The notes under the pieces are model-generated. The model searched no databases. It saw only the letters and a program-made list of their open reading frames with translations, and had not been told where the DNA came from. A stretch of 64,000 bases of DNA, from contig JAHBTL010000001.1 of assembly GCA_019638615.1 (NCBI GenBank), positions 62,001 through 126,000 on the forward strand. Direction: 5' to 3'. The position numbers were made by a program, and so were the translations under genes. Source of the DNA: Chitinophagaceae bacterium (GTDB lineage: Bacteria; Bacteroidota; Bacteroidia; Chitinophagales; Chitinophagaceae). Positions 7,125 through 25,008 of this stretch are shown here, piece after piece; position 1 is the stretch's first letter; every line of letters begins with the position of its first letter.

Positions 7125-7340
7125 AGATTTCAAATTTGAGATGTTTGGGGTTTATTGTTTATAGTCTGGAGCTAAGAATAATGGACAATGGATGATGGAC
7201 AATGAAATCACCGTCAACCGTCAATTGTCAATCTTCAATCAACCTGTACCCTGCAACAACCATCAAATCTCGAATTTCAAATCTCAAATTCCCAACATCC
7301 CCAAACCATAAACTCGAAACCACAAACCACCAACCCCACA
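7125..7340. repeat. Intergenic word-repeat array
   Basis: The gap is built from short recurring words: TTTGAGAT, CAAATCTCAAAT, CCATAAACTCGAAACC, CAATTGTCAAT and TGGACAATGG. Read in the direction of the minus-strand gene that ends at 7343, the part next to its stop is G/T-rich (GGTGGTTTGTGGTTTCGAG) and the far part is A/C-rich (CCAGACTATAAACAATAAAC). The same design recurs at 10320-10810, 21652-21835 and 24787-25008. Confidence 0.75.
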
Positions 7341-7342
7341 CC

Positions 7343-7972
7343 CTACTTACACTGTGCCAGCATTTCTTCTGTCAGCTGCTTGCCCCAACGGGGATACAAT
7401 GGTTTCGGATCTTCTGCATTGAATAAAGAAAGCGCCTTTTCCAACACAGGTTTAGCTTTTGCTTTACCGCCACCAAATTGTTCGGGTGTACCGAATATAC
7501 CTGCCCCTTGCAGGTAATATAACCTCGGGTTGTTAGGATCAAGCTGCAAGCCTTTTTTCATTGCTGCCTCGCTTTCGGCTCCATATGTACTCCAGCGCGA
7601 CTGCGGGTCAACCAGCATTTGTTGGGTAGCCGCCATATTGCGTATGGTGCACAGCTCCGCATTGTCTTCTATTGCTTCTGCTTTCGCGCACAGTTCTTTC
7701 ACCCGTGTCGCATTCGTATCCTTGTCTATTGCAGGGTCTGTCCATGCGGGAGTGAGCAAACAAAGAGCGGCATAGTAATAGGGCAGCCATTGTGTTTTTT
7801 CAGCATCGCCGATTCTTTGAAATGCATCTGCCAGGCTTCTCCAGCCGGCGGCAGACTTCACAGTATCCATTGCAGTCAGCCTTGCTTCCATCGCCTTTGT
7901 ATACTTATCGCTTTGAGCGGTAACATTCAGCACGGCTATGCTTAGAATAGCCAGTATCCATCCTTTTTTCAT
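7343..7972 (-). CDS. Exported TPR-like protein
   Basis: The 209-aa protein starts with a signal peptide (MKKGWILAILSIAVLNVTAQ). The rest is helical with TPR-like elements, for example WRSLADAFQRIGDAEKTQWLPYYYAAL and EAAMKKGLQLDPNNPRLYYLQGAGIF, and a glycine-rich insert EQFGGGKAKAKPVLEKAL near the end. It is encoded 44 bp downstream of the TonB-dependent receptor gene in the same direction, so the two are likely cotranscribed and may form an envelope complex. No enzymatic motif is visible. Confidence 0.8.
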   Translation of the reverse strand: MKKGWILAILSIAVLNVTAQSDKYTKAMEARLTAMDTVKSAAGWRSLADAFQRIGDAEKTQWLPYYYAALCLLTPAWTDPAIDKDTNATRVKELCAKAEAIEDNAELCTIRNMAATQQMLVDPQSRWSTYGAESEAAMKKGLQLDPNNPRLYYLQGAGIFGTPEQFGGGKAKAKPVLEKALSLFNAEDPKPLYPRWGKQLTEEMLAQCK

Positions 7973-8016
7973 TTGTGTTTCATTTATATGTTATTGCATT
8001 ATCGCGGTAAAAAGTT

Positions 8017-10269
8017 TTACAGGTTATTGTTAATAGCATCCTCGGTCCGGTCTATCCCAATACTCATGAACAGCCCCAGGAATACAAAGGTTCTTGAGGG
8101 CGGTACTATGGCGGATTTCCGGTATCCATTATAAGAGTAATTATACCCGTATACCTGGTCAATGCCGAAAATGTTGTTCACTGATAACACCAGCACGGTA
8201 AATCGTTTGCTGTCCTTTTTAAACAAACCAGGCAGGTAGTTTACACTGAAACTTACATTGTGATAATCTTTGGTTTCGCCTCTATCCGAAAATTTATAAT
8301 CTGTACCGTCAAAAATAATATTATAATATGGGCGGCCGCTGGCATAGGTATACGACATATTAAACCCAGTTTTCCACGCTGTCACAAACTTTTTCATTAC
8401 CAGAGACGCAGTATGTTTTGCGGCAAAGCTGGGTTGAATGGCAAAAGGAAAGTTTGTAAAATCTCTTTTCGTATCAAGGTAGGAATAGGAAATCCAGTAG
8501 TCAAGATCTTTGAACGTTTTTTTATCGCGCCAGAACAATTCTAACCCTTTCGCATCACCAAAGCCATTATTATTTATAGCCACCTGCTGATTATTGATCG
8601 TACTAACATTGGTTTTTATAAGGTCTTCGTATTTTTTGTAAAACACTTCCATCCGGAGTGTGACCTTGTCCGTTACTTTTTGATATTGCGCTATATAATG
8701 TGTTGCTTTTGAAAATGTAAGTACAGCAGGTGCAGGCAAATACTTATTCTCAGGGTTTTGATAAAAAATGCCATACGCTACAGATGCCTGGCTTTTTTTA
8801 CCTGTTTTATAGGCAAGGGAAATTCTTGGCGCTATATTGCTTTTTTTGAGCAATGACGAATGCTCAAACCGCCCTCCTGCTTTCATGGCAAGATCGTTGG
8901 TGAGATAAACGTCCGTTTCCGCAAAGAACGCGCTCATATTTTCAACAATACTGTTGCTGAACTGATCTCCCGTATACAACGTATAGTCTGCTTTATCATG
9001 GCTGTGATTATACTCCGTTCCAAACCTAACCACAGAAATGCCCTTAAGCCTTTTATCAACCACAACCCTGGCATTAAAATAGCTTCCCGGCAGCAATACG
9101 TTAAAGTTTTTATATTCAAGTCCCTGAATGGTCTGCTCTTTGTTTTGTTCATCCAGCAGGTTGCCATCAATATGATCCCTGTTGGCAGTAAAAGAAAGCC
9201 CGGTGTTTAATTTCCAGCCATTGCCCAGCAGTTCCCGGTACGACAGGTTGTGGTACATATTAAAATTACTGATGGAAAATGCATCTTTATAGCCCAGCGT
9301 ATCCAGGCTGGGATTCCTTATGCCAACCTTGTTTGCACTGAAGTATCCGTAATATTTTATAATGCCCGTTGAAGAAGTTTTAATACGAAAATTGGCGTCC
9401 GCAGTATGAAAATCAGGTATCCTGGTATACTCAGGGCGCTGCCTGATGGCTTTAAAAGCCAGCCACAGGTTAGCATAACTGTAACTTAAACCCCAGGATG
9501 ATTTTTTGTTTTTTGCAAGATGCTGGTGTCCGGCGCTCACACTCAATACGGATATGCCGAAATCGCTTGAGCTTTGTTCAGGCAGATCTATAGACTCCAG
9601 GATCAAAGCTGAAGAAAGCGCCTGACCGTACAAGGCAGAATAACCACCTGTGCTGAAAACAGTTCCTTTGAAAAGGAAGGGAGAAAACCTGCCACGCTGC
9701 GCTATGTTAGGCACACTGCTGTAAAAGAAATTATTGACCAGCGTACCGTCAATAAAGGTTTTGGTTTCGGCAGCAGTTCCGCCTCTTACAAATAAGCCTT
9801 CGCTTTCTCCTACCTGCTGGGCGCCGGGTAAAGTTTTTAACGCTCCTGTTACATCGGCATTTGCACCGGCCGTAGTAGCAACATCAATAGAGCTCAGCAC
9901 TGTTACTCTTTTTTTATCTCCCGCCTCAAAGCTGCCTGCCGTGATCAGCACTGCTTTTAATTCGCTGATCTCTTCTTTCATATCTATATCCATCACAACA
10001 GGTGTGTCAGCTATTTCTATATTGCTTTCTACCGGCTTGTATCCTGAAGCCGTTGTCACCAATACAAACTTTCCCTTTTCGTCGGTTGAAAAATGATAGC
10101 TGCCGGTTGAATCAGCAGTTGCACCGTCATAAGTATCCTTCAGAGTAATGCTCGCTCCTGCAACCGGCTTTCCCTTTTTATCCCTGACCCGCCCGGATAC
10201 AATTGCCTGAGCGTTTACCACATCACTTATTCCCAGAAACAATACAACCAGCATGAATAATCTCTTCAT
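8017..10269 (-). CDS. TonB-dependent outer-membrane receptor with carboxypeptidase-regulatory-like domain
   Basis: The 750-aa protein has a signal peptide, an N-terminal carboxypeptidase-regulatory-like domain (SGRVRDKKGKPVAGASITLK, about residues 26-115), a plug domain with ALKTLPGAQQVGESEGLFVRG, and a beta-barrel rich in aromatic strands to the C-terminus. It moves a ligand across the outer membrane using TonB energy. It has no SusD partner and is shorter than SusC proteins (about 1000 aa), so the cargo need not be a glycan; the ligand is unknown. A well-formed promoter lies directly upstream at 10287-10318, and the TPR-like gene follows in the same unit. Confidence 0.92.
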   Translation of the reverse strand: MKRLFMLVVLFLGISDVVNAQAIVSGRVRDKKGKPVAGASITLKDTYDGATADSTGSYHFSTDEKGKFVLVTTASGYKPVESNIEIADTPVVMDIDMKEEISELKAVLITAGSFEAGDKKRVTVLSSIDVATTAGANADVTGALKTLPGAQQVGESEGLFVRGGTAAETKTFIDGTLVNNFFYSSVPNIAQRGRFSPFLFKGTVFSTGGYSALYGQALSSALILESIDLPEQSSSDFGISVLSVSAGHQHLAKNKKSSWGLSYSYANLWLAFKAIRQRPEYTRIPDFHTADANFRIKTSSTGIIKYYGYFSANKVGIRNPSLDTLGYKDAFSISNFNMYHNLSYRELLGNGWKLNTGLSFTANRDHIDGNLLDEQNKEQTIQGLEYKNFNVLLPGSYFNARVVVDKRLKGISVVRFGTEYNHSHDKADYTLYTGDQFSNSIVENMSAFFAETDVYLTNDLAMKAGGRFEHSSLLKKSNIAPRISLAYKTGKKSQASVAYGIFYQNPENKYLPAPAVLTFSKATHYIAQYQKVTDKVTLRMEVFYKKYEDLIKTNVSTINNQQVAINNNGFGDAKGLELFWRDKKTFKDLDYWISYSYLDTKRDFTNFPFAIQPSFAAKHTASLVMKKFVTAWKTGFNMSYTYASGRPYYNIIFDGTDYKFSDRGETKDYHNVSFSVNYLPGLFKKDSKRFTVLVLSVNNIFGIDQVYGYNYSYNGYRKSAIVPPSRTFVFLGLFMSIGIDRTEDAINNNL

Positions 10270-10286
10270 TGCAATGAATTATATCT

Positions 10287-10318
10287 CAAACATAAAGTAG
10301 TTTATATTATAAACCAAA
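10287..10318 (-). promoter_or_regulatory. Bacteroidota promoter of the TonB receptor gene
   Basis: On the minus strand TTTG (complement of 10315-10318) and TATGTTTG (complement of 10287-10294) are separated by exactly 20 bases, matching the TTTG-N19/20-TAnnTTTG consensus. The -7 box lies 17 bases before the ATG at 10269, giving a leader of about 10 bases. Confidence 0.8.
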
Positions 10319-10319
10319 T

Positions 10320-10810
10320 ATTTTTGAGTTTCGTTTTGGGTTTATAGTTTCGAGGTTGAAGTTTATGGTTACAGGTCGCAAGTTGCAGGTAAAGGGTTAG
10401 GTATCAGGTATGAGTGTCTCAGGCAATAGACATAGTTGACAGTGGAAAGGATGGAATGTTTATCGTTTGTGGTTTGTAGCTTGTGCGTTGGGGTTACTGA
10501 TTAAAAACATAAACCCACAGCCCATAGCTGGGGGCTCATATCAAATCTCAAATCCCCAAATCAGAAATCATTGTCGACCGTCCATTATCAATTGTCAATT
10601 TATTTTTTTCTTGTCATTCTGAGCGAGCAAATAACTGCCCGATAAAGTGAAACATTTTCGTAAGCGAAGAATCTCTAGTGGCTGTGAGCCGTGGGCTATG
10701 AGCGATGAGGTGGATGAAATGTATAGTTTATAGTTTGAGGTTTATCATCTATAGATTATGGTCTACAACTTCAAACAGCAAACACCAAACACCAAACTAC
10801 AAACCATTAA
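10320..10810. repeat. Long intergenic word-repeat array with an embedded TCATTCTGAGCG element
   Basis: About 490 bp without a gene. Seen from the minus gene ending at 10811, the stop-proximal part is G/T-rich (GGTTTGTAGTTTGGTG) and the distal part is A/C-rich (CCATAAACTTCAACCTCG). Words shared with the other arrays include CAAATCTCAAATC, TCAATTGTCAATT and TTTATAGTTT. A distinct insert at 10611-10678 starts TTGTCATTCTGAGCGAGC and ends GCGAAGAATCTC, a sequence type often scattered in Bacteroidota genomes. The promoter of the TonB receptor gene sits at the left end. Confidence 0.75.
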
Positions 10811-13800
10811 CTACTTTTTAATCACCAGCCTTTCATGCTCCCACCTGTCGCCCAAACGTAACACCAAAGTATATACCCCTTCGCTCAACCTGTCTAGATC
10901 GTTTACCGTAATGCTGTTCTGACCAGATTCAGCCATATACTGCTTACGAAGCACCACCTTCCCGGTCATATCAAGTATCTGATACTCTACAGGTCCCCGA
11001 ACTGAGGTATTAAAACTAATTTGAACAGAGGAAGATGCCGGATTAGGGCTGATCTTCAATTTTTCGCCGGTACGGTTAGAAAGTCGTACCACCAGGACAT
11101 TACTGTACTTACGAACCCCATCTTTACTTACTACGCATATCCTGTAGTACAGTACATCTGTATTCACATGTAAAGAAGCATCCTGGTATGTGAGCGTAAC
11201 CGCTTCGTTTTGAGGCACTGCTTTTTTAACTTCCCCGATTCTTCCGAAATTGGTACCGTCAGTTGACCGCTCTACTTCAAAGTGGCTGATCTGTTCTGTG
11301 GTGATTATCCGCCAGTTGAGATCTATAGAAGCGCTACGCTGCACTGCAGAGAACTGAAGGAAATCAATTGGTAAGATTGTACATGTTGAAACAGTTACTG
11401 TAGCCTGCGCACATGTAGTGGTATTACAATCTCCTTCTGCACGCGCATAGTATGTAGTACTTGTTGAAGGATATACTGTAACAGAGGCACCGGTTCCAAC
11501 CAGTGTTCCGCCACAGCTTCCGGTGTACCATCTCCACACAGCGTTGGTACCCAATGAACCGCCCTGCACTGTTAAGGTTACGGGGTTGCCCGTACACGTA
11601 GTGAACGCAGGGTTGGCGGCAATGCCGGTTGGCGCGGTGGAGGAGGTTTTTGCCGTAAGCTGGAAGCTGTTAGATATGTACCGGCAGTTTGTATTATTGA
11701 TATTACCCGCTGCAGCCACTATTACACGGTAATACTTTCCAATGTCGGAAGGCATTAAAGGATTAATAGTATAGGTAACATTATTGGCACCTGATATATT
11801 TGACCAGCTACTGTTGTTGCTACTTACCTGCCACTGGTAATCCAGCGTGCCGGAAATAACGGTCGGGTCATTCAATGCGGCGCTAAAGGTAGTGGTACCC
11901 ATAGAACAGCCTGCTGTCGAGTTCACTGTAACCGTTGGCGTCGGATCACACAATCCGAATTGTATATCGTCAATGGCCAGGTCATTACCACAACCACCTG
12001 CGGCAGCATTGTTGATTTCAATTACTACTTTTGTAACCCCTGCCGGCATTACAAATTTCATTCCGTATTGCGTCCATGCGGCGCTGGTAATTTCAGGTGT
12101 TGTAAGGTTGGTAATAATATTTCCATTGCTGGCATTGCGTACTGTAAAAATCAGTTTCGGATATACAAGCCCGCCAAACGCATCGTTACAGAAAGTTTCG
12201 TAAGACGAATTGGCAATATTGGATGCAAAAGCGAACAATGAGTATTTAAGATTGGTGCACGGTATGTTGATGGTATCCCTGTACACTTTGCTGCCCTTTA
12301 CGTCTGCATTTAAAACCATCATCCGTCCGCTGCCGGTAGTGTGGTCTGTAAGGCTTATCCAGCGGGATGTATTGCCCTTATTGGCATTGTTGGTTAATGC
12401 ATATGTTTCTACCGCAAGCGGCTGGCTGGTGCTTCCGGTATATTCGGTTCCGGCTGTTCCTGCGCTTCCGGTTGCTGCAGGTATCGCGGTAGCCAGTGGG
12501 TTTCCCGTACCAAAGTTCTGCATATACAATATCCTGTTCAATGCATCACAAGGCGGCATTTCCGCGGTTGTTAAAATTACGAACGGCGTTGGCTGGTCTT
12601 CACCCACATCATCCGGTTTGGCATTACTGTTTAAATCAGGATTACTGCCATTGGTGGATTTGTCTGTAAGGTTTGCGCTGAGATACCCCCGTGCATATGC
12701 GAATGCACTATTATTATACACACGTCCTATCACGATATTTTTTACGCGAAAACATATCCTCAATGTAAAATGATTCATGGCGGCAGGTGATGCCGGTAAC
12801 CTTGACAGCGTATCAACCAGCAGGTTGGTTCTATCAACGCCACCACTGTTTACACCATTAAACGTGGTATCCAGTACAACGCCTGCGGGATTGTCTATCA
12901 ATGAAACCGAAACATTTGAAATATTTCCTGAGCCATAAACAGTGCCGAGGTTATCTTTCAGCCTCACGCTTGATAATGGCCAGTTGCCGTAGTTCTGAAC
13001 ATAAATATCATAGCAAAGATCATAGGTTCCGGGAGTACCCGTAGCCGTAACTGACGAAAGAGACTTTGCAACGCCGATGGCACTGTTAATATCCGTCATA
13101 TCGGTACTGAAATAGCAGGGAGCGGTAGTGATGGTGGTCTTAGCGCCATCCACAATCCCAATCTCATAGTAGTTACTTCTGTATTTACCTCCTGTAACAT
13201 AATAATCAGAAGCAACCAGCTTTCCATCGGCATAAGACAATCCAATAATGGTATTGCCGCTCAGCTTGCTGATTAAGGTAGCATGCAGCGGGCCCGTACC
13301 ATAATCCTGGTAATTAATGGTTATATAGTTATTATCGAGAATAGCCAGGAACTGACCTGTAGGAGTAATGATAAAATCACCGTTACCAGCGAGCGGATTC
13401 AAACCGGAAGGTAAAGAAACCGGTACAATGGGACCGAGTGTTCCGGTAGTAAAATTAACGCTTTGCAAAGCCAGCCCATAAGGATAAGAGCCGGTATAAA
13501 TCAATTGATAGCCCATACCCTCCGAATCGAAGGTAAGACCAATTACATAAGTATTATTGTACACTGTTAACAGGGCTGTTGCCGGAGGGCAGGCTGCACC
13601 GGGCTTCCATCTCCAGACATATGTATGGGGAGATTTGTAGCGGGTATAATAAAGACTGGTATCCTTGGGATTAAACGAGATACCAGCATTATACTCATCA
13701 AAACCGGGGTTTGCAAGATTAGATAAATTACAGGTGGTAGGCGAAAGGGTATCTAATGTTTGATTGCTGGATGTGTACCTGAATTGGACGAACCCTTTTC

Positions 13801-13942
13801 CCGATCCGCAAGGTTTATTTCCTATGCTTACCGGTACTGCATACGTTGCCTGCGCATGTATTTTTGTTGATGTGCCTCCCATTGCAGCTATAAGCAAAAT
13901 CAACAAGAGTAACTTTTTTACAGGTTGAAACCGGGTTTTCAT
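10811..13942 (-). CDS. Large secreted protein with Ig-like domains and T9SS type A sorting domain
   Basis: The 1043-aa product starts MKTRFQPVKKLLLLILLIAAMGG, a signal peptide; a GTG 24 bases upstream (13966) would add only eight residues and is less likely. The N-terminal third looks like a repeated beta domain with a DUF11-like segment (YDLCYDIYVQNYGNWPLSSV). The middle has a jelly-roll-like part (LRICFRVKN to LAIDDIQFG), followed by two Ig-like repeats with YTINPLMPSDIGKYYRV and TTYYARAEGDC. It ends with a fibronectin-like unit and the sorting domain LKISPNPASSS...GKVVLRK...GVYTLVLRL. Such proteins are exported through T9SS and anchored or released at the surface. It is probably monocistronic. 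Function beyond adhesion or matrix binding cannot be said. Confidence 0.88.
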   Translation of the reverse strand: MKTRFQPVKKLLLLILLIAAMGGTSTKIHAQATYAVPVSIGNKPCGSGKGFVQFRYTSSNQTLDTLSPTTCNLSNLANPGFDEYNAGISFNPKDTSLYYTRYKSPHTYVWRWKPGAACPPATALLTVYNNTYVIGLTFDSEGMGYQLIYTGSYPYGLALQSVNFTTGTLGPIVPVSLPSGLNPLAGNGDFIITPTGQFLAILDNNYITINYQDYGTGPLHATLISKLSGNTIIGLSYADGKLVASDYYVTGGKYRSNYYEIGIVDGAKTTITTAPCYFSTDMTDINSAIGVAKSLSSVTATGTPGTYDLCYDIYVQNYGNWPLSSVRLKDNLGTVYGSGNISNVSVSLIDNPAGVVLDTTFNGVNSGGVDRTNLLVDTLSRLPASPAAMNHFTLRICFRVKNIVIGRVYNNSAFAYARGYLSANLTDKSTNGSNPDLNSNAKPDDVGEDQPTPFVILTTAEMPPCDALNRILYMQNFGTGNPLATAIPAATGSAGTAGTEYTGSTSQPLAVETYALTNNANKGNTSRWISLTDHTTGSGRMMVLNADVKGSKVYRDTINIPCTNLKYSLFAFASNIANSSYETFCNDAFGGLVYPKLIFTVRNASNGNIITNLTTPEITSAAWTQYGMKFVMPAGVTKVVIEINNAAAGGCGNDLAIDDIQFGLCDPTPTVTVNSTAGCSMGTTTFSAALNDPTVISGTLDYQWQVSSNNSSWSNISGANNVTYTINPLMPSDIGKYYRVIVAAAGNINNTNCRYISNSFQLTAKTSSTAPTGIAANPAFTTCTGNPVTLTVQGGSLGTNAVWRWYTGSCGGTLVGTGASVTVYPSTSTTYYARAEGDCNTTTCAQATVTVSTCTILPIDFLQFSAVQRSASIDLNWRIITTEQISHFEVERSTDGTNFGRIGEVKKAVPQNEAVTLTYQDASLHVNTDVLYYRICVVSKDGVRKYSNVLVVRLSNRTGEKLKISPNPASSSVQISFNTSVRGPVEYQILDMTGKVVLRKQYMAESGQNSITVNDLDRLSEGVYTLVLRLGDRWEHERLVIKK

Positions 13943-14189
13943 TGTACGGGTTTTAAGTGTTTTCACAGGTAGGATAGATCTTAAATAAATCGTTTACGCT
14001 GTAAAATTATAAGTGCAAACCTTTACTTCTTTAGCATTTCGATCAGCTTCCAGTTTTTTTCGATTGACATACCACTTCTGTTAACAAACATCAATTACAT
14101 CAAAGGAATACCCTTACAACTCTTTAACTAACGTATTATAACCATGCAAAGTATATGACACAGACAGCGGGGGCATTTATGAAAAAGAA
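13943..14189. other. Gap between the T9SS cargo gene and the atp operon
   Basis: An AT-rich gap with no ORF or repeat words. I find no good -7 box for the minus gene starting at 13942. The only clear element in the neighbourhood is the atp terminator that follows at 14190-14213. Confidence 0.5.
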
Positions 14190-14213: not shown

Positions 14214-14244
14214 ACACAAAAAACAATCTTATGAATATTTAGTA

Positions 14245-17306: not shown

Positions 17307-17343
17307 TTAATATTTAAAAGTGAATAAAAACGTTTTCATGCTA

Positions 17344-18450
17344 TTATATTACAGGAATATCCTCATGATGATCGTGATGCTCTTCAATTGCCATTCCTAT
17401 ATATAAAGCGGATAACATCGCGAAAATAAATGCCTGCAGGAAGCCCACCAGCAATTCAATCACACTAATAAAAACGGTGAACGGCACTGCCATTGCTGAA
17501 GCGAACACAGATTCAAAAATAAATATTAGTGAAATCAGGCTCATTACTAAAATATGTCCTGCAGTGATATTGGCAAATAACCGGATGGTGAGTGATATAG
17601 GCTTAATAAAAACACCCAGCACCTCGATAGGCATCAGGAATATTTTCATGGGCGTGGGCAAACCCGGCATCCAGAAAATATGTTTCCAGTAATCCTTTTT
17701 ACCATTCACATTCACTATTATGAATGTAAAAAGTGCCAGTGCCAGCGTAAAAGCGATATTACCACTCAGGTTAGCACCACCGGGGAAAAATGGCACCAGC
17801 CCTAACAGGTTGTTGATCCAGATGAAAAAGAAAATGGTTAAAAGGAAAGGCATGAACCTGGCATACTGATGCCCCAGGTAAGGCTTAGCCACCTCATCTC
17901 TGACAAATAATATAATGGGCTCAATAAAAGACTGGAACCCTTTCGGAGCAGATTTTACTCCTGTTTTTTGATAGGCCCTGGCTACACCGGTAAAGATCCA
18001 TATCAGCAGCAGCACCGTCAAAAACATAGAAGCCACGTTCTTGGTAATGGATATGTCAAAAACCTTTTTAGAGTCTTCTTCATTTACAGTGCCGTCGGCA
18101 TTTACAATTTTAATCTTACCCTCTACCAGCTTATAGGCGTAATTGCCCTGGTAAACAACCGGCTCATGATGTTCGCCGGATAATTTCGAAGAAGAAAAGA
18201 ACTCAAATCCCTTATCTGTTTTTATGATAACCGGCAGAGGTATGGAAGTATGACCCCATAAATGCCAGCTATGATGGTCTTTAACGTGGTCGAGAATAAA
18301 GCCTGTTACATCAAAATCGCCTTTGTGTTCTGTATTTTCAGACGGATGATGTTCTTTGCCATTTTCCTGGGCAAAAGATACATTAGAATTAAAAATTATA
18401 AATAAGCTGAAAACCGCTACCAACAAGGATTTGACGCTCTTTGACATCAT
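17344..18450 (-). CDS. atpB: ATP synthase Fo subunit a, long Bacteroidota form
   Basis: The 368-aa protein is longer than the usual 240-270 aa because of an N-terminal signal peptide (about residues 1-27) and an extra periplasmic part rich in histidine. Membrane helices begin near residue 130. The essential arginine lies in ISLTIRLFANITAGH, and the C-terminal helices follow with FLQAFIFAMLSALYIGMA. Two adjacent ATG codons (18450 and 18447) are possible starts. It heads the operon; no small atpI/atpZ-type gene precedes it. A -7 box lies at 18470-18477. Confidence 0.96.
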   Translation of the reverse strand: MMSKSVKSLLVAVFSLFIIFNSNVSFAQENGKEHHPSENTEHKGDFDVTGFILDHVKDHHSWHLWGHTSIPLPVIIKTDKGFEFFSSSKLSGEHHEPVVYQGNYAYKLVEGKIKIVNADGTVNEEDSKKVFDISITKNVASMFLTVLLLIWIFTGVARAYQKTGVKSAPKGFQSFIEPIILFVRDEVAKPYLGHQYARFMPFLLTIFFFIWINNLLGLVPFFPGGANLSGNIAFTLALALFTFIIVNVNGKKDYWKHIFWMPGLPTPMKIFLMPIEVLGVFIKPISLTIRLFANITAGHILVMSLISLIFIFESVFASAMAVPFTVFISVIELLVGFLQAFIFAMLSALYIGMAIEEHHDHHEDIPVI

Positions 18451-18469
18451 GCTGTCCTGAAATTTGGCG

Positions 18470-18477
18470 CAAAGATA
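18470..18477 (-). promoter_or_regulatory. -7 box of the atp operon (TATCTTTG)
   Basis: The complement reads TATCTTTG, a perfect TAnnTTTG match, 19 bases before the atpB ATG. No TTTG is seen at the expected -33 position. The predicted leader is only about 13 bases. Confidence 0.65.
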
Positions 18478-18563
18478 GGAGTTGGAGATCAGAAATAATA
18501 ATATCTGAAATACGAAATAGGGAATTTATTTTACTTGTTGATAATTGTACCGCTTTTTGCTGC

Positions 18564-18612
18564 GTAAAAGTCAGCCGGCACCCGGTTTTACCGGGTAAAA
18601 CCCAGCTTTTAC
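18564..18612. promoter_or_regulatory. Cluster of four alternating GTAAAA half-sites (candidate operator)
   Basis: GTAAAA occurs at 18564-18569 and 18595-18600, and its complement TTTTAC at 18586-18591 and 18607-18612. The central pair forms the dyad GGTTTTAC-CGG-GTAAAACC (18584-18602). The cluster lies just upstream of the -33 element of the promoter at 18643-18674, where an activator would bind. Binding by the operon's own LytTR protein is inference. Confidence 0.5.
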
Positions 18613-18642
18613 CGGAAAAATAACCGTCATGACCTATATCCG

Positions 18643-18674
18643 CTTGCTGACGGCGCCGCGTATTGATAGATTTG
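18643..18674 (+). promoter_or_regulatory. Bacteroidota promoter of the LiaF-LytSR-like operon
   Basis: CTTG (18643-18646) and TAGATTTG (18667-18674) are separated by exactly 20 bases, fitting the TTTG-N19/20-TAnnTTTG consensus. The ATG at 18698 lies 23 bases downstream of the -7 box. Confidence 0.78.
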
Positions 18675-18697
18675 TATAAATAAAATAACAGAGCAGT

Positions 18698-19489
18698 ATG
18701 AAACGCAACAAATTTGAGAATGAAAACAAGACAGGGACGGTACTGGCAGGTTTGTTTTTACTGGTCATTGGGGTAGCCGCCATCCTGCGTCAGACCATTC
18801 TCGATTTTCCTTCCTGGATCATGAGCTGGCCGATGATCCTGATACTGGTAGGGATTTTTATAGGGCTGAAACACGGGTTTCGCGGCCCGGGCTGGATCAT
18901 TCTCATTGGGCTGGGCAGCATATTCCTGGCAGACAAAGTGATTCCGGGAGTAAACCTGAAACCGTTTATATGGCCATTGGTAATTATAGCTGCAGGCTTA
19001 TTCATGATCGCCGGGGCCGGCAGGCGTAAAAAATGGATCCGGGAGCACTGGGAGCTTTATAATGATGAAAAAAAATATATGGGCTTCAGCAATACGGAAG
19101 AAGCAGATGCAGATACAGGGGCAACACAAACGAAAAGCAGAAAGGGAACGGATGAATTGGTAGAGATCACCTCCATATTGGGAAGCGCCAAAAAAGTAAT
19201 TTTTTCCAAGGATTTCCAGGGAGGCGACATTACCAATTTTATGGGAGGAACAGAGATCAACTGCACCCAGGCAGATATCAAGGGCGTTGTTCATCTTGAT
19301 ATCACCCAGATATTTGGCGGCACCAAGCTGATCGTTCCCGCACATTGGACCATAAAATCTACCGCCACCTCCATTTTTGGCGGATTTGAGGACAAACGCA
19401 ATATCATGAACATCATGCCCGACCCCAATAAAGTACTCACGATTGACGGCACTTCCATATTCGGAGGAATTGAAATCAAAAGTTATTAA
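18698..19489 (+). CDS. LiaF-like cell-envelope stress protein
   Basis: The 263-aa protein has four membrane helices (about residues 13-107: GTVLAGLFLLVIGVAAIL, WPMILILVGIFIGL, WIILIGLGSIFLA, WPLVIIAAGLFMIAG) and a soluble C-terminal beta-helix-like domain with repeats ITSILGSAKKVI, ITNFMGGTEIN, ITQIFGGTKLIV and TSIFGGIEI. This is the layout of LiaF/VraT-type modulators, which control an envelope-sensing histidine kinase. It is the first gene of an operon with a LytS-type kinase and a LytTR regulator, which supports that role. Confidence 0.88.
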   Translation: MKRNKFENENKTGTVLAGLFLLVIGVAAILRQTILDFPSWIMSWPMILILVGIFIGLKHGFRGPGWIILIGLGSIFLADKVIPGVNLKPFIWPLVIIAAGLFMIAGAGRRKKWIREHWELYNDEKKYMGFSNTEEADADTGATQTKSRKGTDELVEITSILGSAKKVIFSKDFQGGDITNFMGGTEINCTQADIKGVVHLDITQIFGGTKLIVPAHWTIKSTATSIFGGFEDKRNIMNIMPDPNKVLTIDGTSIFGGIEIKSY

Positions 19490-19510
19490 CCATTTTAAAA
19501 CCAAAGCAGC

Positions 19511-19870
19511 ATGAACTGGTTCCTGGCTAAAATAGTTTACCGCATAGTATGCGGTGAAGGAGATCATACCCCTCAGTTTGATGAACAACTGAGGCTGGTA
19601 GCGGCAACAAATGAAAAAGAGGCGTTGCATAAGGCTTATAGTATAGGACAGCAGGAAGAAGATTGCTTTTATAATACAGCCGACAAACTGGTACAATGGA
19701 AGTTTATCAATGTAACAGAACTGTTCAGCATTACAGAAATGACAGACGGGGCGGAAGTATACAGCCGCATAGAAGAAAAAGACAACGGCGACCAGTATAC
19801 GGAGTTGATACACAGGCGGGCGGCTTATCTTAAGATGAATCCTCCCCTGCGTTTATTAGAAACATTGTAA
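19511..19870 (+). CDS. DUF4288 family protein
   Basis: This 119-aa soluble protein begins MNWFLAKIVYRIVCGEGDHT and has VQWKFINVTELFSI and DGAEVYSRIEE, a pattern I associate with DUF4288. No signal peptide or membrane segment is visible. It is encoded between the LiaF-like gene (21 bp upstream) and the kinase gene (9 bp downstream), so it should be made together with the signalling proteins. Its role is unknown. Confidence 0.75.
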   Translation: MNWFLAKIVYRIVCGEGDHTPQFDEQLRLVAATNEKEALHKAYSIGQQEEDCFYNTADKLVQWKFINVTELFSITEMTDGAEVYSRIEEKDNGDQYTELIHRRAAYLKMNPPLRLLETL

Positions 19871-19879
19871 ACATCTATT

Positions 19880-20911
19880 GTGCCGACAACTGCTTTATCA
19901 ACATACAGGTATAGGCTCTATTACACAGGCTTTTGGATACTGTGGAGCGGCGTGCATGCATGGGTATTGCAGGGGTTGGGATACAGCACCCGCAATGCAT
20001 GGACCGACAGCATGATCAGCAATGGCTTGCTTGCTATAACCGGGTTATTGGTGATCGTGGCATTAAGCTACTACCTGCCACGTAAAGACCAGGTCACTTC
20101 GCTGCTGCTGATGTGCATAGGGTTTACATTGGCGTGGGTAGCTTTAACCAGGATATTCCTTTTTAAAATAGCTGATGAAACAGTTTATACGCATTTTAAT
20201 GAAACCATTCAACTGCGCGGCGCTATCAGTTTTCTTATATTGGGGTGCGTAGTATTGCTGAGTGTATTATGGCATTCACAGGAAGATCAGAAAGAACAGG
20301 AAAGAAGGAAAAACGAGTCGGACAGGATTGCAAGAGACGCGGAGCTTTTTAAGCTGCGACAACAATTGCAGCCGCACTTTTTATTCAACAGCTTAAACTC
20401 TATCAGCGCCCTGGTGGTCAGCCAGCCTTCAGAGGCAAGAAAGATGATACAGCAACTGTCTGATTACCTGCGCAGCACACTTAAAAAGGAGGAGCATACC
20501 TGGGTTACTCTTGCAGAAGAGCTGGAATACCTGCAGCTTTATCTTGATATTGAAAAGGTAAGATTCGGACACCGGTTGTCTACAAAAATAACCAGCCATG
20601 AAAATGCGCCCGATTGTAAGCTGCCGGCGCTGCTGTTACAGCCTGTGGTAGAAAACGCTATCAAATTTGGGTTGTATGATACTACCGAAAATATAACCAT
20701 AAGCGTACATGCGGGTATTTCAGACAAGCTATTGGTTATTACGGTTGAAAACCCTTTTGACTCCAGCCTGTCGCAACCTAAAACAGGAACGGGATTTGGA
20801 CTCAGTTCAGTGCAACGGCGCTTATACCTGCTGTTTGCAAGAAACGATTTGCTTGAAACGGCAGCTAAAGAAAATGTATTCATTACACGCATCAAAATTC
20901 CGCAGCAATGA
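19880..20911 (+). CDS. LytS-type sensor histidine kinase
   Basis: The 343-aa protein starts at GTG; no better start is seen. About four membrane helices occupy residues 12-130. The His_kinase domain (PF06580 type) follows, with the phosphoacceptor histidine in QLQPHFLFNSLNS near residue 165, the YLQLYLDIEKVRFG segment, and an ATP-binding domain with LLQPVVENAIKFG and GTGFGLSSVQRRL. It phosphorylates the LytTR regulator encoded next, with which it overlaps by 4 bp (ATGA). Confidence 0.93.
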   Translation: MPTTALSTYRYRLYYTGFWILWSGVHAWVLQGLGYSTRNAWTDSMISNGLLAITGLLVIVALSYYLPRKDQVTSLLLMCIGFTLAWVALTRIFLFKIADETVYTHFNETIQLRGAISFLILGCVVLLSVLWHSQEDQKEQERRKNESDRIARDAELFKLRQQLQPHFLFNSLNSISALVVSQPSEARKMIQQLSDYLRSTLKKEEHTWVTLAEELEYLQLYLDIEKVRFGHRLSTKITSHENAPDCKLPALLLQPVVENAIKFGLYDTTENITISVHAGISDKLLVITVENPFDSSLSQPKTGTGFGLSSVQRRLYLLFARNDLLETAAKENVFITRIKIPQQ

Positions 20912-21651
20912 TAAAAACGATCATTATTGATGATGAGCCTTTGGCCAGAAACATTGTGAAAGAATACCTTGCTGACTATAGCCGGGTAGAAATACTGGAG
21001 GAATGCAATGATGGGTTTGAAGGGGTGAAAGCGATCATGCAGCATCAGCCTGATCTTATTTTCCTTGACATACAAATGCCCAAGATCAACGGTTTTGAAA
21101 TGCTGGAGCTGGTGGAGCAACCTCCAGCCGTTATCTTTACTACCGCTTTCGATGAGTATGCAATACGTGCATTTGAGGCGCACGCCATCGATTATCTTTT
21201 GAAACCCTTCAGCAGGGAACGATTTGATAAAGCGATGCAGAAATGGCTGCAACAGCATGATAATAACATACGCCCGTCGCTTTCGGCTTCCCTGTTCGAA
21301 ACAGCGGCGCATACTTCTTTGCACAGCAATCGTATTGTAGTTAAAACCAACAATAAAATAAAGATCATTCCTGTTCATGATATACAGTACCTGGAAGCCG
21401 CTGATGATTATGTAAAGATTCATACGGCGGGCGGGGCATATCTCAAAAACAAAACCATGCAATATTTTGAACAGCTTTTGGATGAACATGTTTTTGTAAG
21501 ATCACACAGATCCTATATTATCAATATGCAGCACATTACAAGAATCGACCCTTACGAAAAAGAAAGTTACCTGGCATTGCTCAACACAGGGCAAAAAGTT
21601 CCTGTAAGCAAAACGGGGTATGCAAAATTAAAGCTGATGCTGGGGCTATGA
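20908..21651 (+). CDS. LytTR family response regulator
   Basis: A 247-aa protein with a receiver domain (acidic pair at residues 8-9, phosphoacceptor Asp54 in FLDIQMP, and the conserved lysine in LLKPF) and a C-terminal LytTR DNA-binding domain (about 145-245; IQYLEAADDYVKIHT and FVRSHRSYIINMQHI). It is cotranscribed with its kinase and probably regulates the operon itself; candidate sites lie at 18564-18612. A word-repeat array starts directly after the stop. Confidence 0.95.
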   Translation: MIKTIIIDDEPLARNIVKEYLADYSRVEILEECNDGFEGVKAIMQHQPDLIFLDIQMPKINGFEMLELVEQPPAVIFTTAFDEYAIRAFEAHAIDYLLKPFSRERFDKAMQKWLQQHDNNIRPSLSASLFETAAHTSLHSNRIVVKTNNKIKIIPVHDIQYLEAADDYVKIHTAGGAYLKNKTMQYFEQLLDEHVFVRSHRSYIINMQHITRIDPYEKESYLALLNTGQKVPVSKTGYAKLKLMLGL

Positions 21652-21835
21652 GGATTTGAGGTTTATGGTTTGGAGTTTATGGTTAACAAAAAACTACAAA
21701 CACTACAACTCATCTAAAATTTCAAATCTCAAATCGTAAAATTCTTTCCCGTGCAACGCTGTTGCTCTCGTGGCTCTGTGGTTCAGGGTTTCAACTATAA
21801 ACAAAAAACCACAAACTATAAACTCCAGGTATTTC
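21652..21835. repeat. Intergenic word-repeat array
   Basis: It begins immediately after the LytTR stop with G/T-rich words (GGTTTATGGTTTGGAG, GTTTATGGTT) and ends with A/C-rich complements (ACCACAAACTATAAACTCC). The middle holds TTTCAAATCTCAAATC. The polarity matches the arrays at 7125, 10320 and 24787. Confidence 0.75.
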
Positions 21836-21921
21836 AGTTTTACATAAAAATTTCCAAAAAAAAGGCTATATAGTGTCCGCTGATCGTAGTTTCTTTATCT
21901 TTAGTGAAAGATATTTGTGGA

Positions 21922-22404
21922 ATGAAAAACTTTTTCCTGTTCCTGTGCCTTATATTTTTTTATGCAGCCTGTAACAGTACATCCGAAAATACACCTGTTG
22001 ATATTGCGCCTGCATTGAAAAATAATGGTGGAAGAGAACTTGATTCATCCCACCTTACATTTGTTGGTACATTCGAAGGCATTTTACCATGTGTCGATTG
22101 CGGTGGCATTAAAACTGAACTCATCCTGTACCAGGATATTGCCAATTCAGAAAACAATTCTTATACACTCAAAGAAACTTATCTTGGCGGCAAGTTGGGC
22201 GACACAACTTTCAGCAGCAATGGCAAGTGGGATATTCTTAAAGGAATAAAAGGCGATGACGCGGCGATCGTATACTTTCTTAATTACGATGAGCCCGATG
22301 ATTCCCGCTACTACCTGAAAAAGGGAGATACCACCATTATCATGCTTGATAAAGATCAGAAACTGATCGAGCCTCCGCTCAACCACATATTGCGCCGCAA
22401 ATAG
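21922..22404 (+). CDS. NlpE-like copper-resistance/envelope lipoprotein
   Basis: The 160-aa product begins MKNFFLFLCLIFFYAACNS with a lipobox cysteine, so it is a lipoprotein; the start at 21922 is preferred over a GTG 18 bases upstream. The NlpE N-terminal signature appears as FVGTFEGILPCVDCGGIKTEL with its CxxC pair, then YTLKETYLGG. NlpE-like proteins bind metal and signal envelope stress in other bacteria; the C-terminal domain of E. coli NlpE is absent. A near-match -7 box TATCTTTA lies about 25 bases upstream. Confidence 0.85.
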   Translation: MKNFFLFLCLIFFYAACNSTSENTPVDIAPALKNNGGRELDSSHLTFVGTFEGILPCVDCGGIKTELILYQDIANSENNSYTLKETYLGGKLGDTTFSSNGKWDILKGIKGDDAAIVYFLNYDEPDDSRYYLKKGDTTIIMLDKDQKLIEPPLNHILRRK

Positions 22405-22516
22405 CCCTCCGGCATATGCGATTAAATTACTGGGTTTCAACATCTAATTAGTAAAATAGTTGAATGTTGATACAATCCGGAGTACCCATACCCGTTATAT
22501 GCAGAAACAATTTTCT

Positions 22517-23092
22517 ATGAAAAGATCAATTTTACTCGTTGTAGCTACTGCTGCATTGTTTTCAGTTATTACCGTTCAGGCTCAAAAAGACGGTAAAAAA
22601 TTCAGCGCAGGCTTTGGTATTGAAAGTGGCCTAATACTCGGAGACGATGCCATGAAAGAATCATTTGGAGCAGAGTTTGGATTCAGCGCCCGGTTTTCAG
22701 TAAAAGCAGGCCCCGGTTATGCTACATTTACACCAGGTGTAATGCTTGTTTTTCCCAAATCATTAAATATCAACGAAGAAGAGGGAAGCGCAGACCTTAA
22801 AGTGGGTACACATATTCCCTTAAAGCTTGGATATAAATATATCATCGCCGAAAAATTCTTTGTAATGGCGGAGGCCGGATATGCCCGTTATACATTTTAT
22901 TCTACCGAGGGAGAGAGTGATGATGTTTTAAAACAAAAAGCCGGTGGTTTTACCTACGCACCTTCTATTGGTGCTAACCTTGGTAAATTCGAAGTAGGGC
23001 TCCGTTACGAAGCTTCTTCCTTAAAATTAAAAGGCAGCGATTTCAAAGTAAAACCTTCCATGCTGGGCTTAAGGATTGGCTTTAACTTCTGA
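22517..23092 (+). CDS. Outer-membrane beta-barrel protein
   Basis: The 191-aa product starts MKRSILLVVATAALFSVITVQAQ, a signal peptide; longer frames from 22460 or 22499 only extend it. The mature part has alternating amphipathic strands typical of small eight-stranded barrels (FSAGFGIESGLILGD, FGFSARFSVKAGPGYATF, KLGYKYIIAEKFFVMAEAGY) and ends with LGLRIGFNF, an aromatic barrel terminus. Function unknown. A terminator follows. Confidence 0.83.
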   Translation: MKRSILLVVATAALFSVITVQAQKDGKKFSAGFGIESGLILGDDAMKESFGAEFGFSARFSVKAGPGYATFTPGVMLVFPKSLNINEEEGSADLKVGTHIPLKLGYKYIIAEKFFVMAEAGYARYTFYSTEGESDDVLKQKAGGFTYAPSIGANLGKFEVGLRYEASSLKLKGSDFKVKPSMLGLRIGFNF

Positions 23093-23122
23093 TCTCCTGC
23101 CCCAACTTTCTTAATAGATCAT

Positions 23123-23150
23123 AGCCGTTGTCATATGATAACGGCTTTTT
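23123..23150 (+). terminator. Intrinsic terminator after the barrel protein gene
   Basis: AGCCGTT and AACGGCT form the outer stem, with TCATATGA extending it as an inner palindrome, followed by five Ts. Confidence 0.88.
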
Positions 23151-23563
23151 AATGACATTGCCTGTATCCAGCTTCTTTTTAAAACAAAAAACCGGGCACG
23201 TATGTCCGGTCAAAATATTTCGTCGGGGGTTGTTCATTCATCTAACGGGTGTTGCCGTTTGCATTTCCAGGCTGGTGGTGTTCTCCGTTCAGGGTTGACA
23301 GTTTTCATAGAGTAAGTGGTTTTCATGGACAGGTTCATTTTTCAAAGGATCGGGTACGGACTAAATAACGGGCCTTTTTCAAAAGTTAAGGTCATTTTCT
23401 CAGGATAAGATTTTTTGGCAACGTTGACAGTACAAAGATGTACAATCATTCCTGCCGGTTATAATTTATTCGCTGCAAGCTGTATTTTATTCGATTTCCG
23501 AACGAAATATGCCGATAAACACATTGAATTTTAAATGTTGGCGCCGGGGTTTTTAAATTAAAG
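23151..23563. other. Gap before nadC, with an orphan minus-strand terminator
   Basis: About 410 bp without a confident gene. It contains a hairpin oriented for minus-strand termination (23187-23210), a GTACA-N4-TGTAC dyad near 23430-23443, and a minus-strand frame of 35 codons that ends shortly before the hairpin. Whether a small transcript is made here cannot be decided from sequence alone. Confidence 0.45.
23187..23210 (-). terminator. Orphan terminator oriented to the minus strand
   Basis: On the minus strand ACCGGACA-TACG-TGCCCGGT forms a hairpin with one mismatch and is followed by a TTTTTTG-TTTT tract. No annotated minus-strand gene lies to its right before nadC. Confidence 0.55.
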
Positions 23564-23571
23564 TAGTTTTG
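23564..23571 (+). promoter_or_regulatory. -7 box of nadC (TAGTTTTG)
   Basis: A perfect TAnnTTTG match ends only four bases before the ATG at 23576, so transcription should begin at or next to the start codon. GTTG at 23537-23540 is a possible -33 element, with a somewhat long 23-base spacer. Confidence 0.65.
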
Positions 23572-23575
23572 CCGC

Positions 23576-24430
23576 ATGATGACTTACGAACAGGCGCTGG
23601 AATTGCTTATACAAAACGCGCTAAAGGAGGATATAGGCGATGGAGACCATTCCACCCTGAGCTGTATTGCCCCCGAAGCAAAAGGGAAGGCTGTATTAAA
23701 AATCAAGGAAAACGGTATACTGGCGGGAATGGAAGTAGCAGAAAAAATATTCAGGTATATGGAACCCACGATCCTTTTTAAGCCTTTTAAAAAGGATGGC
23801 GATGTGATGCAGTACGGGGAAACCGCTTTTGAAGTAGAAGCGAAGGTTCATACCATATTGCAATGCGAACGATTGGCGCTGAATTGCATGCAACGCATGA
23901 GCGGCATTGCCACACTCACCCGGAAATTTACGGATCAATTAAAAGGCTACCATACCCGGCTGCTCGATACCCGGAAGACTACGCCCAACTTCCGGTTGCT
24001 TGAAAAAGAAGCCGTGCGGATAGGCGGCGGGCTGAATCATCGCATGGGCTTATACGATATGATCATGCTGAAAGACAATCATATTGACTATTGCGGGGGC
24101 ATAGAACAGGCCATATCAAAAGCGTACGGGTATGTACAATCAAAAAAGCCCGGCTTAAAAATAGAGGTGGAAGCAAGAAACATCGAAGACGTAAAAAAGG
24201 CATTGGCTGCCGGTAAGGTCGACCGCATCATGCTGGACAATTTTTCGCCGGATCAAATTAATGAAGCGCTTTTGTTGATAAATGGTAATGTGGAAACAGA
24301 AGCCAGCGGCGGCATCAATCTTGGCAACGTGGTTTCGTATGCTGAAACAGGAGTTGACTTTGTAAGCATCGGCGCCGTCATTCATCATGCCGTAAGCCTC
24401 GATCTTAGTTTAAAAGCAGTATTGATCTGA
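23576..24430 (+). CDS. nadC: Nicotinate-nucleotide pyrophosphorylase (carboxylating)
   Basis: The 284-aa protein converts quinolinate and PRPP to nicotinate mononucleotide in NAD synthesis. Visible motifs are the N-terminal EDIGDGDHST, LQCERLALNCMQRMSGIAT, the active-site LLDTRKTTPNFR with arginine and lysine, GGGLNHRMGLYDMIMLKDNH, IEVEARNIEDV and the terminal phosphate-binding EASGGINLGNV...SIGAV. Two ATG codons (23576 and 23579) sit directly behind the -7 box. The SUI1-like gene follows after 14 bp. Confidence 0.97.
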   Translation: MMTYEQALELLIQNALKEDIGDGDHSTLSCIAPEAKGKAVLKIKENGILAGMEVAEKIFRYMEPTILFKPFKKDGDVMQYGETAFEVEAKVHTILQCERLALNCMQRMSGIATLTRKFTDQLKGYHTRLLDTRKTTPNFRLLEKEAVRIGGGLNHRMGLYDMIMLKDNHIDYCGGIEQAISKAYGYVQSKKPGLKIEVEARNIEDVKKALAAGKVDRIMLDNFSPDQINEALLLINGNVETEASGGINLGNVVSYAETGVDFVSIGAVIHHAVSLDLSLKAVLI

Positions 24431-24444
24431 AACAGCTATACATC

Positions 24445-24786
24445 ATGTCAAAAAAGAATAAACCCGATAACCGGGGCTACGTATACAGCACCGATCCCAA
24501 TTTTTCCTTTAAAGAAGAAGCCGGCAATGAAGCCACTCTTCCGCCGGCTCAACAGCCACTGAGGGTAACACTTGACACCAAACACAGGGCAGGAAAAGCG
24601 GTTACACTTGTATACGGTTTTAAGGGATCGGCAACCGACCTTGAGGAGCTGGGGAAAAAACTCAAAAATTTTTGCGGTACCGGCGGATCTGTAAAGGATG
24701 GTGAAATAATTGTGCAGGGCGACCAGCGCGAAAAGGTAATGCAATGGCTTCAGAAAAACGACTATAAAAAAGCAAGCAGGGTGTGA
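24445..24786 (+). CDS. SUI1/eIF1-like translation initiation factor (YciH family)
   Basis: A 113-aa protein with a charged, probably flexible N-terminus and a SUI1 domain from about residue 38: LRVTLDTKHRAGKAVTLVYGFKG, then LGKKLKNFCGTGGSVKDGEIIVQGDQ. YciH-type proteins affect start-codon selection on the 30S subunit. It is downstream of nadC in one likely transcript. A word-repeat array begins right after its stop. Confidence 0.92.
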   Translation: MSKKNKPDNRGYVYSTDPNFSFKEEAGNEATLPPAQQPLRVTLDTKHRAGKAVTLVYGFKGSATDLEELGKKLKNFCGTGGSVKDGEIIVQGDQREKVMQWLQKNDYKKASRV

Positions 24787-25008
24787 ACGGGTTGCAGGTT
24801 ACAGGTTATTTGAAATTTGAGATTTGAGATTCGAGATTCATTACTCATAGCTGATGGCTGGTGGCTGATAGCTGATAGCTGACAGCCGGTAGCTATTTGT
24901 TTCTCAACCTATAAACTCAAAACTATAAACCACAAACCCTGCAACTTGCAACCCGCAACCGCCATCAAATTTCAAATCTCGAATCTCAAATCCATACCCC
25001 TGCAACAT
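24787..25008. repeat. Intergenic word-repeat array with an 18-bp inverted repeat
   Basis: Directly after the stop of the SUI1-like gene come GGGTTGCAGGTTACAGG and TTTGAGATTTGAG words, then GCTGATAGCTGATAGCTGAC, then A/C-rich complements (ACCTATAAACTC, AACCACAAACC, TGCAACCCG, TCAAATCTC). GATTTGAGATTCGAGATT at 24821-24838 is the exact reverse complement of 24975-24992, and CGGGTTGCA at 24788-24796 of 24947-24955. These two pairs are crossed rather than nested. Confidence 0.8.

Follow-up and report, generated by a model that had tools for sequence, protein, structure and literature searches.

The 64,000-nt stretch considered here (the window) is taken from the forward strand of contig JAHBTL010000001.1, positions 62,001 to 126,000, of Chitinophagaceae bacterium assembly GCA_019638615.1, a genome of 7.18 Mb in 87 contigs that is denoted G000 below. 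Four of its intergenic gaps carry arrays of short repeated words (arrays 1 to 4, Table 1). The arrays were first noticed in an original prediction made from the letters of the DNA, according to which the four gaps are built from the same words and each array begins at the stop codon of a gene. Both points are confirmed: the quoted words are found in all four gaps, beginning 0, 6, ~2 and 3 nt from the stops at 7343 (-), 10811 (-), 21651 (+) and 24786 (+), respectively. Tandem Repeats Finder (TRF) further reveals a periodicity absent from that prediction, in which the words of the four gaps recur every 7 bases. The heptads of the arrays include GTTTRTR, ATTTGAR, RGTTNCA, RGGTRTA, TGGACAA and AGCTGAY, among others. 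A period-7 segment is present in 9 of the 33 called gaps of the window, the four noted ones and five more, and an Rfam scan of the window gave no match at gathering scores.

The same periodicity is widespread in G000. A sample of 1.2 Mb, with genes called by our own script, holds 636 gaps (184 kb of gap DNA, gaps <40 nt being left out), and 96 of these contain period-7 arrays. The repeats are heptanucleotide and intergenic, with 220 period-7 segments located between genes and 23 in coding sequence. Same-length first-order Markov sequences, a sound control for segment counts, yield a mean of 6.0 and a maximum of 13 segments over 20 sets, and the intergenic segments at periods 5, 6, 8, 9, 10 and 11 number only 10, 7, 16, 6, 8 and 5. 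An excess at periods 7, 14 and 21 is also seen across bulk intergenic DNA in an 800-kb sample, for which the control was an earlier type of shuffle that could shorten gaps. Among the 96 array gaps, GTTTRTR is found in 50, ATTTGAR in 45, AGCTGAY in 44, RGTTNCA in 42, TGGAYAR in 33 and RGGTRTA in 13, and each of these six words is found in only 2 to 8 of the 540 non-array gaps. The commonest segment length is four units, both in G000 (83 of 220) and in G121, a genome from another genus of the family (89 of 139), in counts from which arrays of at most two units are missing because of the score threshold.

Proteins encoded next to the arrays include one of the TonB-plug/CarboxypepD_reg type and another that carries a Por_Secre_tail domain, which we associate with Bacteroidota.

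Table 1. Arrays and further period-7 segments of the window (K, G/T-rich; M, A/C-rich)
Feature	Position	Period-7 segments	Setting	Remark
Array 1	7117..7342	7180-7204, 7210-7240, 7254-7289, 7303-7342	between start of gene 6433-7116(-) and stop of gene 7343-7972(-)	right edge 0 nt from stop codon
Array 2	10320..10810	10458-10484 (K), 10538-10570 (M), 10767-10804 (M)	between start of gene 8017-10269(-) and stop of gene 10811-13966(-)	right edge 6 nt from stop
Array 3	21652..21835	21712-21740, 21793-21824 (M)	from stop of gene 20908-21651(+) towards gene 21922-22404(+)	G/T words at 21654-21685 read by eye
Array 4	24787..25008	24790-24808 (K), 24808-24893 (unclassed), 24906-24938 (M), 24940-24960 (M), 24965-24992 (M)	from stop of gene 24445-24786(+) (SUI1 family) to just before gene 25037-26500(+) (class II tRNA synthetase)	
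Further segment	38887..38926 (+)	K	convergent gap	15 nt past stop of gene 38230-38871(+)
Further segment	54018..54048		convergent gap 54007-54050	AGCT-type words
Further segment	28080..28106		gap 27095-28139	AGCC/AGCT-type words
Further segment	30357..30393		gap 30288-31266	AGCTATC words
Further segment	49984..50009		divergent gap 49783-50076	A-rich; may be chance low complexity

Polarity and gene edges

Segments were assigned to class K when G+T is >=62% and to class M when G+T is <=38%, the rest being unclassed; the 220 segments of G000 comprise 74 K, 70 M and 76 unclassed. Taken in order, adjacent classed pairs are KM 35, MK 5, KK 18 and MM 16 (p 1e-6 if loci are independent), and the ends of the gaps are K..M in 31 cases, M..K in one and one-sided in 38 (p 2e-8 on the same assumption). 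The G/T words lead from both flanks. The outermost class is K in 53, M in 16 and unclassed in 38 of the stop-codon flanks, and K in 38, M in 7 and unclassed in 40 of the start-codon flanks. G/T words lead at start and stop flanks alike because an array of G/T words followed by A/C words reads the same from either side. The polarity is thus a property of the two ends of the array and not of the strand of a gene, and an inverted array therefore retains it. The original prediction had placed G/T-rich words proximal and A/C-rich words distal on the coding strand of the adjoining gene; the G/T-first order is real genome-wide, while the link to gene strand does not stand. The sister species G002 is concordant, with KM 11 and MK 1.

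The edges of the arrays are set close to stop codons. In G000, 38 of 107 array edges at stop codons lie <=5 nt from the codon, where random placement, in which the same arrays were shifted within the same gaps for 2000 rounds, gives a mean of 18.3 and a maximum of 27. At start codons the corresponding figure is 7 of 85, within the random expectation (mean 8.0, maximum 16). The median edge distance is 15 nt for stop codons and 83 nt for start codons, which leaves room for a promoter. G121 follows the same rule, with 50 of 92 edges <=5 nt from stops (random mean 22.3, maximum 30) and 3 of 78 from starts. Among smaller samples, the counts at stops and starts are 11 of 19 and 0 of 19 in G080, 5 of 5 and 0 of 5 in G134, and 2 of 4 and 2 of 6 in G008, a member of the same genus as G000. 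The stop-codon rule recurs in three other genera. Genome-wide placement of the words without strand polarity or without association to stop codons would have spoken against the design first proposed; the 1.2-Mb sample gave no such result. The further suggestion that a mechanism targets 3' ends is doubtful. Of 93 stop-side cases in G000, 26 have a period that reaches into the stop codon or the final codons of the gene, which fits selection on the gene, rather than a target, setting the limit.

Folding and transcript ends

The arrays had been described as self-complementary end to end. The two halves do share a vocabulary, but in G000 they are no better matched to each other than to the halves of other arrays. 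When the G/T part of an array was compared with its own A/C part, 1369 of 2000 permutations were as good (34 arrays), and for first against last segments the number was 231 of 2000 (63 arrays). The RNA fold z-scores of the four window arrays are -1.98, -6.36, -2.43 and -2.42, the value of -6.36 being that of array 4. Over 60 gaps of each kind in G000, the mean z is -1.66 for array gaps and -1.35 for other gaps. In G121 the difference is larger (-4.57 versus -2.77, again 60 each), long hairpins are flush with stop codons, and the fit between the outermost two segments of a gap surpasses all of 2000 permutations (47 gaps). When G121 arms are compared inside one word family, the true partner has no advantage (729, 309 and 1672 of 5000 permutations as good), and same-gap pairs are no more alike than cross-gap pairs (14, 20 and 7 pairs). 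The two arms of a G121 gap thus look like independent draws. A fold-back process that copies one arm to make its partner was considered as their origin and is unsupported in G000 and also within the G121 word families.

These observations bear on the possibility that the arrays are RNA 3'-end elements, in which long imperfect hairpins after the stop codon end or protect the transcripts of both neighbours and are kept by selection. The distribution over gap types agrees with such a role in part: arrays occupy 25 of 102 convergent, 57 of 405 same-direction and 14 of 129 divergent gaps of G000 (convergent over divergent, p 0.008). The arrays in divergent gaps weigh against it, because divergent gaps have no 3' end. 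Counted per kb, arrays are scarcer in divergent gaps (0.63 segments versus 1.15-1.71 in the other types) without being absent, which accords with the spacer model below. The mutual fit of segments and the strong folding in G121 array gaps, the low z of array 4 and, as described below, the conservation of loci whose sequence is often not conserved are in its favour. So is the available text of one report, which describes hairpin clusters, 98% of them <=80 nt from stops, as terminators for which poly-A/U trails are not necessary (PMC8355165).

With regard to classical terminators, a simple home-made search for a hairpin plus T-run was used. It finds them behind 10 of 104 array stops and 55 of 432 other stops in G000 (p = 0.50), so that the arrays are not intrinsic terminators of the type in which a G+C-rich hairpin is followed by a T-run, and the proposed contrast between array genes lacking terminators and other genes having them is not borne out. 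In G121, classical terminators are rarer behind arrays (17 of 144 versus 44 of 208, p 0.03), which would be expected of 3'-end elements, and some arrays may end transcripts. The folding of 3' ends into long imperfect stems, as first suggested, is accordingly weak in G000, where the structure of array gaps barely exceeds that of other gaps, and finds support in the long hairpins of G121. Since the halves are unmatched in G000, G121 arms prefer no particular partner within a word family, and selection for pairing accounts for neither the G/T-first order nor the 7-nt period, we regard RNA 3'-end elements as an unlikely explanation of the arrays.

Shared modules and exchanged words

Pieces of the arrays recur at other loci. 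An all-against-all comparison of gaps gave 1470 matches, of which the best 40 pairs were examined. Among these, 125 nt of array 1 are found at 75% identity in another gap (492), and pieces of array 2 of 132-233 nt are common to seven other gaps at 69-77%; separately, 57 nt of array 1 occur at 91% at a third locus. Array 1 also carries, in reverse, the recurring module ATTTGAR..TTGCAGG. The same best 40 pairs include a core CTTGTCATTCTGAGCGA..GCGAAGAATCT, located at about 10610-10673 of the window in array 2 and common to several array gaps; a similar string is, we presume, present in many bacteria. Copies elsewhere in G000 of >=40 nt at >=90% identity were found for 27 of 96 array gaps and 18 of 387 other gaps, and copies at 60 nt and 85% for 17 of 96 and 32 of 387. 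An array without counterpart in G002 is 94% identical over 64 nt to another G000 locus. The 1.2 Mb contain 24 matches to the pattern of the module ATTTGAR-TGGCTG-TTGCAGG, of which 14 were judged by reading to lie in heptad arrays, the rest looking like coding sequence; the module was also found once in a Chitinophagaceae metagenome-assembled genome (L160).

A 30-base ATTTGAR pattern is found in at least 116 stretches of many phyla. Of at least 122 matches, 41 lie inside open reading frames >=100 aa as called by a rough finder. The other 81 lie outside; over the flanks of these listed matches, a stop is <=10 nt away in 24 of 81 cases and a start in 4 of 54. Viral contigs gave 26 stretches with the ATTTGAR pattern and 7 with its reverse, an excess of only about fourfold.

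The same loci were then followed in the sister species over ~400 kb of the G002 genome, gaps without both flanks mapped being dropped. The flanks are ~86% identical. Both flanks were mapped for 102 gaps, of which 92 are contiguous; 16 of these hold an array in both species, one in G000 only, one in G002 only and 74 in neither. The 16 shared loci compare with 3.1 expected by chance (p about 1e-15). Fifteen of them were scored (one >700 nt was dropped, and gap 447 among the 15 may be a chance segment): five arrays are kept, one is partly kept, and for nine the counterpart is no closer a match than the best among 84 arrays elsewhere. Whole-gap alignment scores <0.3 were obtained for 7 of 16 array gaps, as compared with 2 of 64 others (p 1e-4). 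Array 3 is among the replaced arrays, with largely other words in G002, and array 4 among the kept ones, its G002 copy being two units shorter and carrying an 18-nt insert. Arrays of the two species differ by 7- and 14-nt unit indels. No period-7 segment is present in G002 at the locus of 38887..38926. Breaks of synteny at arrays are not evident, 17 of 21 array gaps and 75 of 81 others being contiguous in G002 (p 0.21).

The array 4 locus bears other heptad words in G003, G006 and G008, and in G009 inspection by eye shows a G/T arm alone; no array is present there in G010 and G011, and the SUI1 gene was not found beside glyS in G001, G004, G005 and G007. One word pattern that matches 243 times in G000 is present in 33 of 147 genomes of the family, exceeds 40 matches in five of them and varies from 1 to 243 matches across 12 genomes of the genus. 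The typical ATTTGAR arm of G121 has four units, [ATTTGAR]2[ATTTNAR][ATTTGAR]AT, in which R is A or G about equally often, among 57 arms picked by a regular expression that prescribes unit one and some of unit two. G121 also uses eight-base words, in 91 period-8 segments. Some of these eight-base arrays (ATTGTTNN, AATTTGAA) are flush with stop codons and some are nested in one another.

The suggestion that the arrays are products of a copy mechanism fits these data better than that of 3'-end elements folding into stems, given the shared multi-word modules, the 7- and 14-nt indels and the exchange between sister species. Dispersed mobile elements with heptad ends, similar to miniature inverted-repeat transposable elements (MITEs) or repetitive extragenic palindromic (REP) sequences and inserting after stop codons and into each other, would account for the pieces that recur between array gaps and for the nested word pairs of G121. 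The loci of G000 and G002 are mostly shared with different contents and not present or absent, no constant ends are seen, and the arms lack the matched terminal inverted repeats of a MITE, being unmatched beyond their vocabulary in G000 and, inside word families, in G121 as well. Moreover, arrays lie <=1.2 kb from 4 of 14 Y1 transposase genes in five genomes (one of the four arrays being a 17-nt period-8 piece), versus 26% of random windows in G000 and 44% in G121. We therefore hold mobile elements to be improbable. A Y1 transposase of the REP-associated tyrosine transposase (RAYT) type was also rejected as cause, since matches are present in 21 of 24 genomes, heptad-rich and heptad-poor, with no excess of proximity.

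Other repeats were met in the course of these comparisons. The gap 617 sequence at C16:50530 onward and C1:256653-256913 are identical over 261 nt and probably represent a recent dispersed copy or a mobile element. L079:5297-5556 (G121:C1:45297-45556) contains a dispersed repeat of ~240 nt that is unrelated to the heptads, with at least 39 further matches at 89-95% among the best 40 candidates scored. The 800-kb sample of G000 contains a set of overlapping 10-mers, each occurring ~14-18 times, which we take to resemble a clustered regularly interspaced short palindromic repeat (CRISPR).

Related repeats and a proposed spacer model

The original prediction knew of no named family with this design, which is too strong, as heptanucleotide intergenic repeats with the same strand rule have been published. 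The accessible part of Rehm 2015 (PMC4692102) describes GGGNATC and GGGGA(C/T)T heptads of Xanthomonas and Nostoc with the same strand rule, stop-codon proximity and four-unit preference; the GGGNATC-type repeats vary between related strains, and the four units are linked to G-quadruplexes. The arrays described here are similar in that G/T words lie near the stop on the coding strand (K 53 versus M 16) and on the other strand at start flanks (K 38 versus M 7). They differ in that start edges are not close (7 of 85 at <=5 nt) and in that many words are used on two sides, rather than the single G-rich word type described in that text. No tandem GGGNATC was found in the sampled gaps. Four runs of three G are present in 0 of 220 segments in G000 and 0 of 139 in G121, and four runs of two G in 34 and 2, respectively; a classical G-quadruplex was thus rejected as the cause of the four-unit mode.

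MacGregor 2015 (PMC4679880), as far as its available text goes, describes TAACTGA heptamers that are mostly intergenic, are suspected of a role in gene rearrangement and in the main species lie mostly just upstream of start codons, and mentions "other heptamer direct repeats" within the same gaps of some Bacteroidetes. This is in contrast to the sampled gaps here, which hold 0 tandem TAACTGA and in which the start-edge median is 83 nt. The same excerpt cites Mrazek 2007 for heptanucleotide units as the most abundant class of long simple sequence repeats in most genomes, with slippage as the proposed cause.

Plain slipped-strand expansion of heptads, the published explanation for heptanucleotide repeats, could act here together with purging from genes and promoters, and it is consistent with the excess of period 7 and with the 7- and 14-nt indels between the sister species. 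A reason for the unit length has also been offered, namely that 7 nt is the stretch contacting the polymerase, a proposal that PMC4679880 credits to Mrazek et al. 2007 and PMC4692102 repeats. Slippage predicts neither the inward polarity, the four-unit mode, the multi-word modules common to different loci, nor the exchange of words at a locus, and is in our judgement quite unlikely to be sufficient.

Other dispersed repeats offer partial parallels. REP sequences and bacterial interspersed mosaic elements (BIMEs), with their RAYT transposases, are dispersed extragenic repeats that are often paired inversely. The arrays are likewise dispersed and extragenic; unlike REP/BIME, they show no fixed short palindrome and no association with Y1 transposase genes. 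For the short tandemly repeated repetitive (STRR) sequences of cyanobacteria and for long simple sequence repeats, we know of no two-sided polarity or exchange of a whole vocabulary. A literature search with the printed strings of six array words gave one unrelated paper. As far as our searches show, four features are new: arrays of mixed words that point inward from each flank, a preference for four units in the absence of G3 tracts, relatives built on eight bases, and loci that persist while their contents are often exchanged.

We tentatively favour, at somewhat less than an even chance, a reading in which the arrays are self-renewing heptad spacers that are repeatedly broken, trimmed and refilled with seven-base words. 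Its observed basis is the period of 7 whatever the word, the inward G/T polarity in the genus, the stop-codon edges, the 7- and 14-nt gains and losses, the shared multi-word modules, and the conserved loci with often exchanged contents. Such a spacer, lying between a stop codon and the promoter or stop codon that follows, would be dispensable. When it is interrupted, the ends may be trimmed and new DNA added at the 3' ends, partly via slippage over the 7-nt unit and partly via copying of word modules from other arrays. Given the polarity, the 3'-ending strand would be G/T-rich on both sides of a break, and the two halves would both grow inward as G/T words until they join head to head. According to the available text of PMC3763553, which credits Tracy and Kowalczykowski 1996, 1997, TG-rich DNA gives the most stable RecA filaments; G/T-rich DNA would accordingly be the composition that such filaments hold best, a conjectural link. 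Refilling would not be tolerated in genes and promoters, from which selection would purge the arrays, and the survivors would therefore fill the space up to the stop codon and stay clear of starts. The RNA hairpin would be a by-product, maybe used in some genomes.

Several observations weigh against this spacer model. The polarity is weak outside the genus (KM 9 and MK 2 in G121, p 0.07; KM 4 and MK 2 in G080), and none is evident among the at least 116 many-phylum loci with the ATTTGAR pattern. The polarity tests assume independent loci; if the arrays stem from few ancestors, their p-values overstate the case, since inversion leaves the polarity of an array unchanged. The assignment of arrays as replaced sets one counterpart against the best of 84 others, a lenient yardstick that leans towards replacement. 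C1:154160, counted among the nine replaced arrays, still shares its outer edges and has a new interior in G002. In several replaced arrays the difference extends all the way to the stop codon, for which refilling within an array is no simple explanation. The best array-array matches score 26.9 within a genome and 25.6 between species (43 versus 42 arrays). Finally, no gene found here accounts for the arrays. Ku as a required enzyme was rejected, as it is absent from the heptad-rich G121 and present in 7 of 8 richer and 9 of 16 other genomes, and the reverse transcriptase RVT_1 (PF00078) was rejected in that role because the heptad-rich G008 and G134 gave no match.

As arrays are equally alike within and between the two species, there is no signal of recent concerted evolution within a genome. 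Either the copying of words is old, or it is continuous in a large pool, or the words are made by a conserved generator. A dedicated 3'-end extension activity that supplies both 3' ends of interrupted spacer DNA with G/T-rich words of seven or eight bases, in batches of about four, before the ends are fused head to head, is a very improbable reading. If it were true, the arrays would correspond, in bacteria, to telomere-like additions that have been fused, and different phyla would have part of their word libraries in common.

Bacterial heptad repeats have been known for a long time, yet no cause has gained acceptance. One genus now offers a contrast in which the same loci carry exchanged words, with two-sided polarity and a four-unit mode without classical G-quadruplex tracts, so that rates, donors and the enzyme become measurable. 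If the refilling of spacers holds, part of the spacer DNA behind genes would be the scar of a continuing repair process and not regulation.

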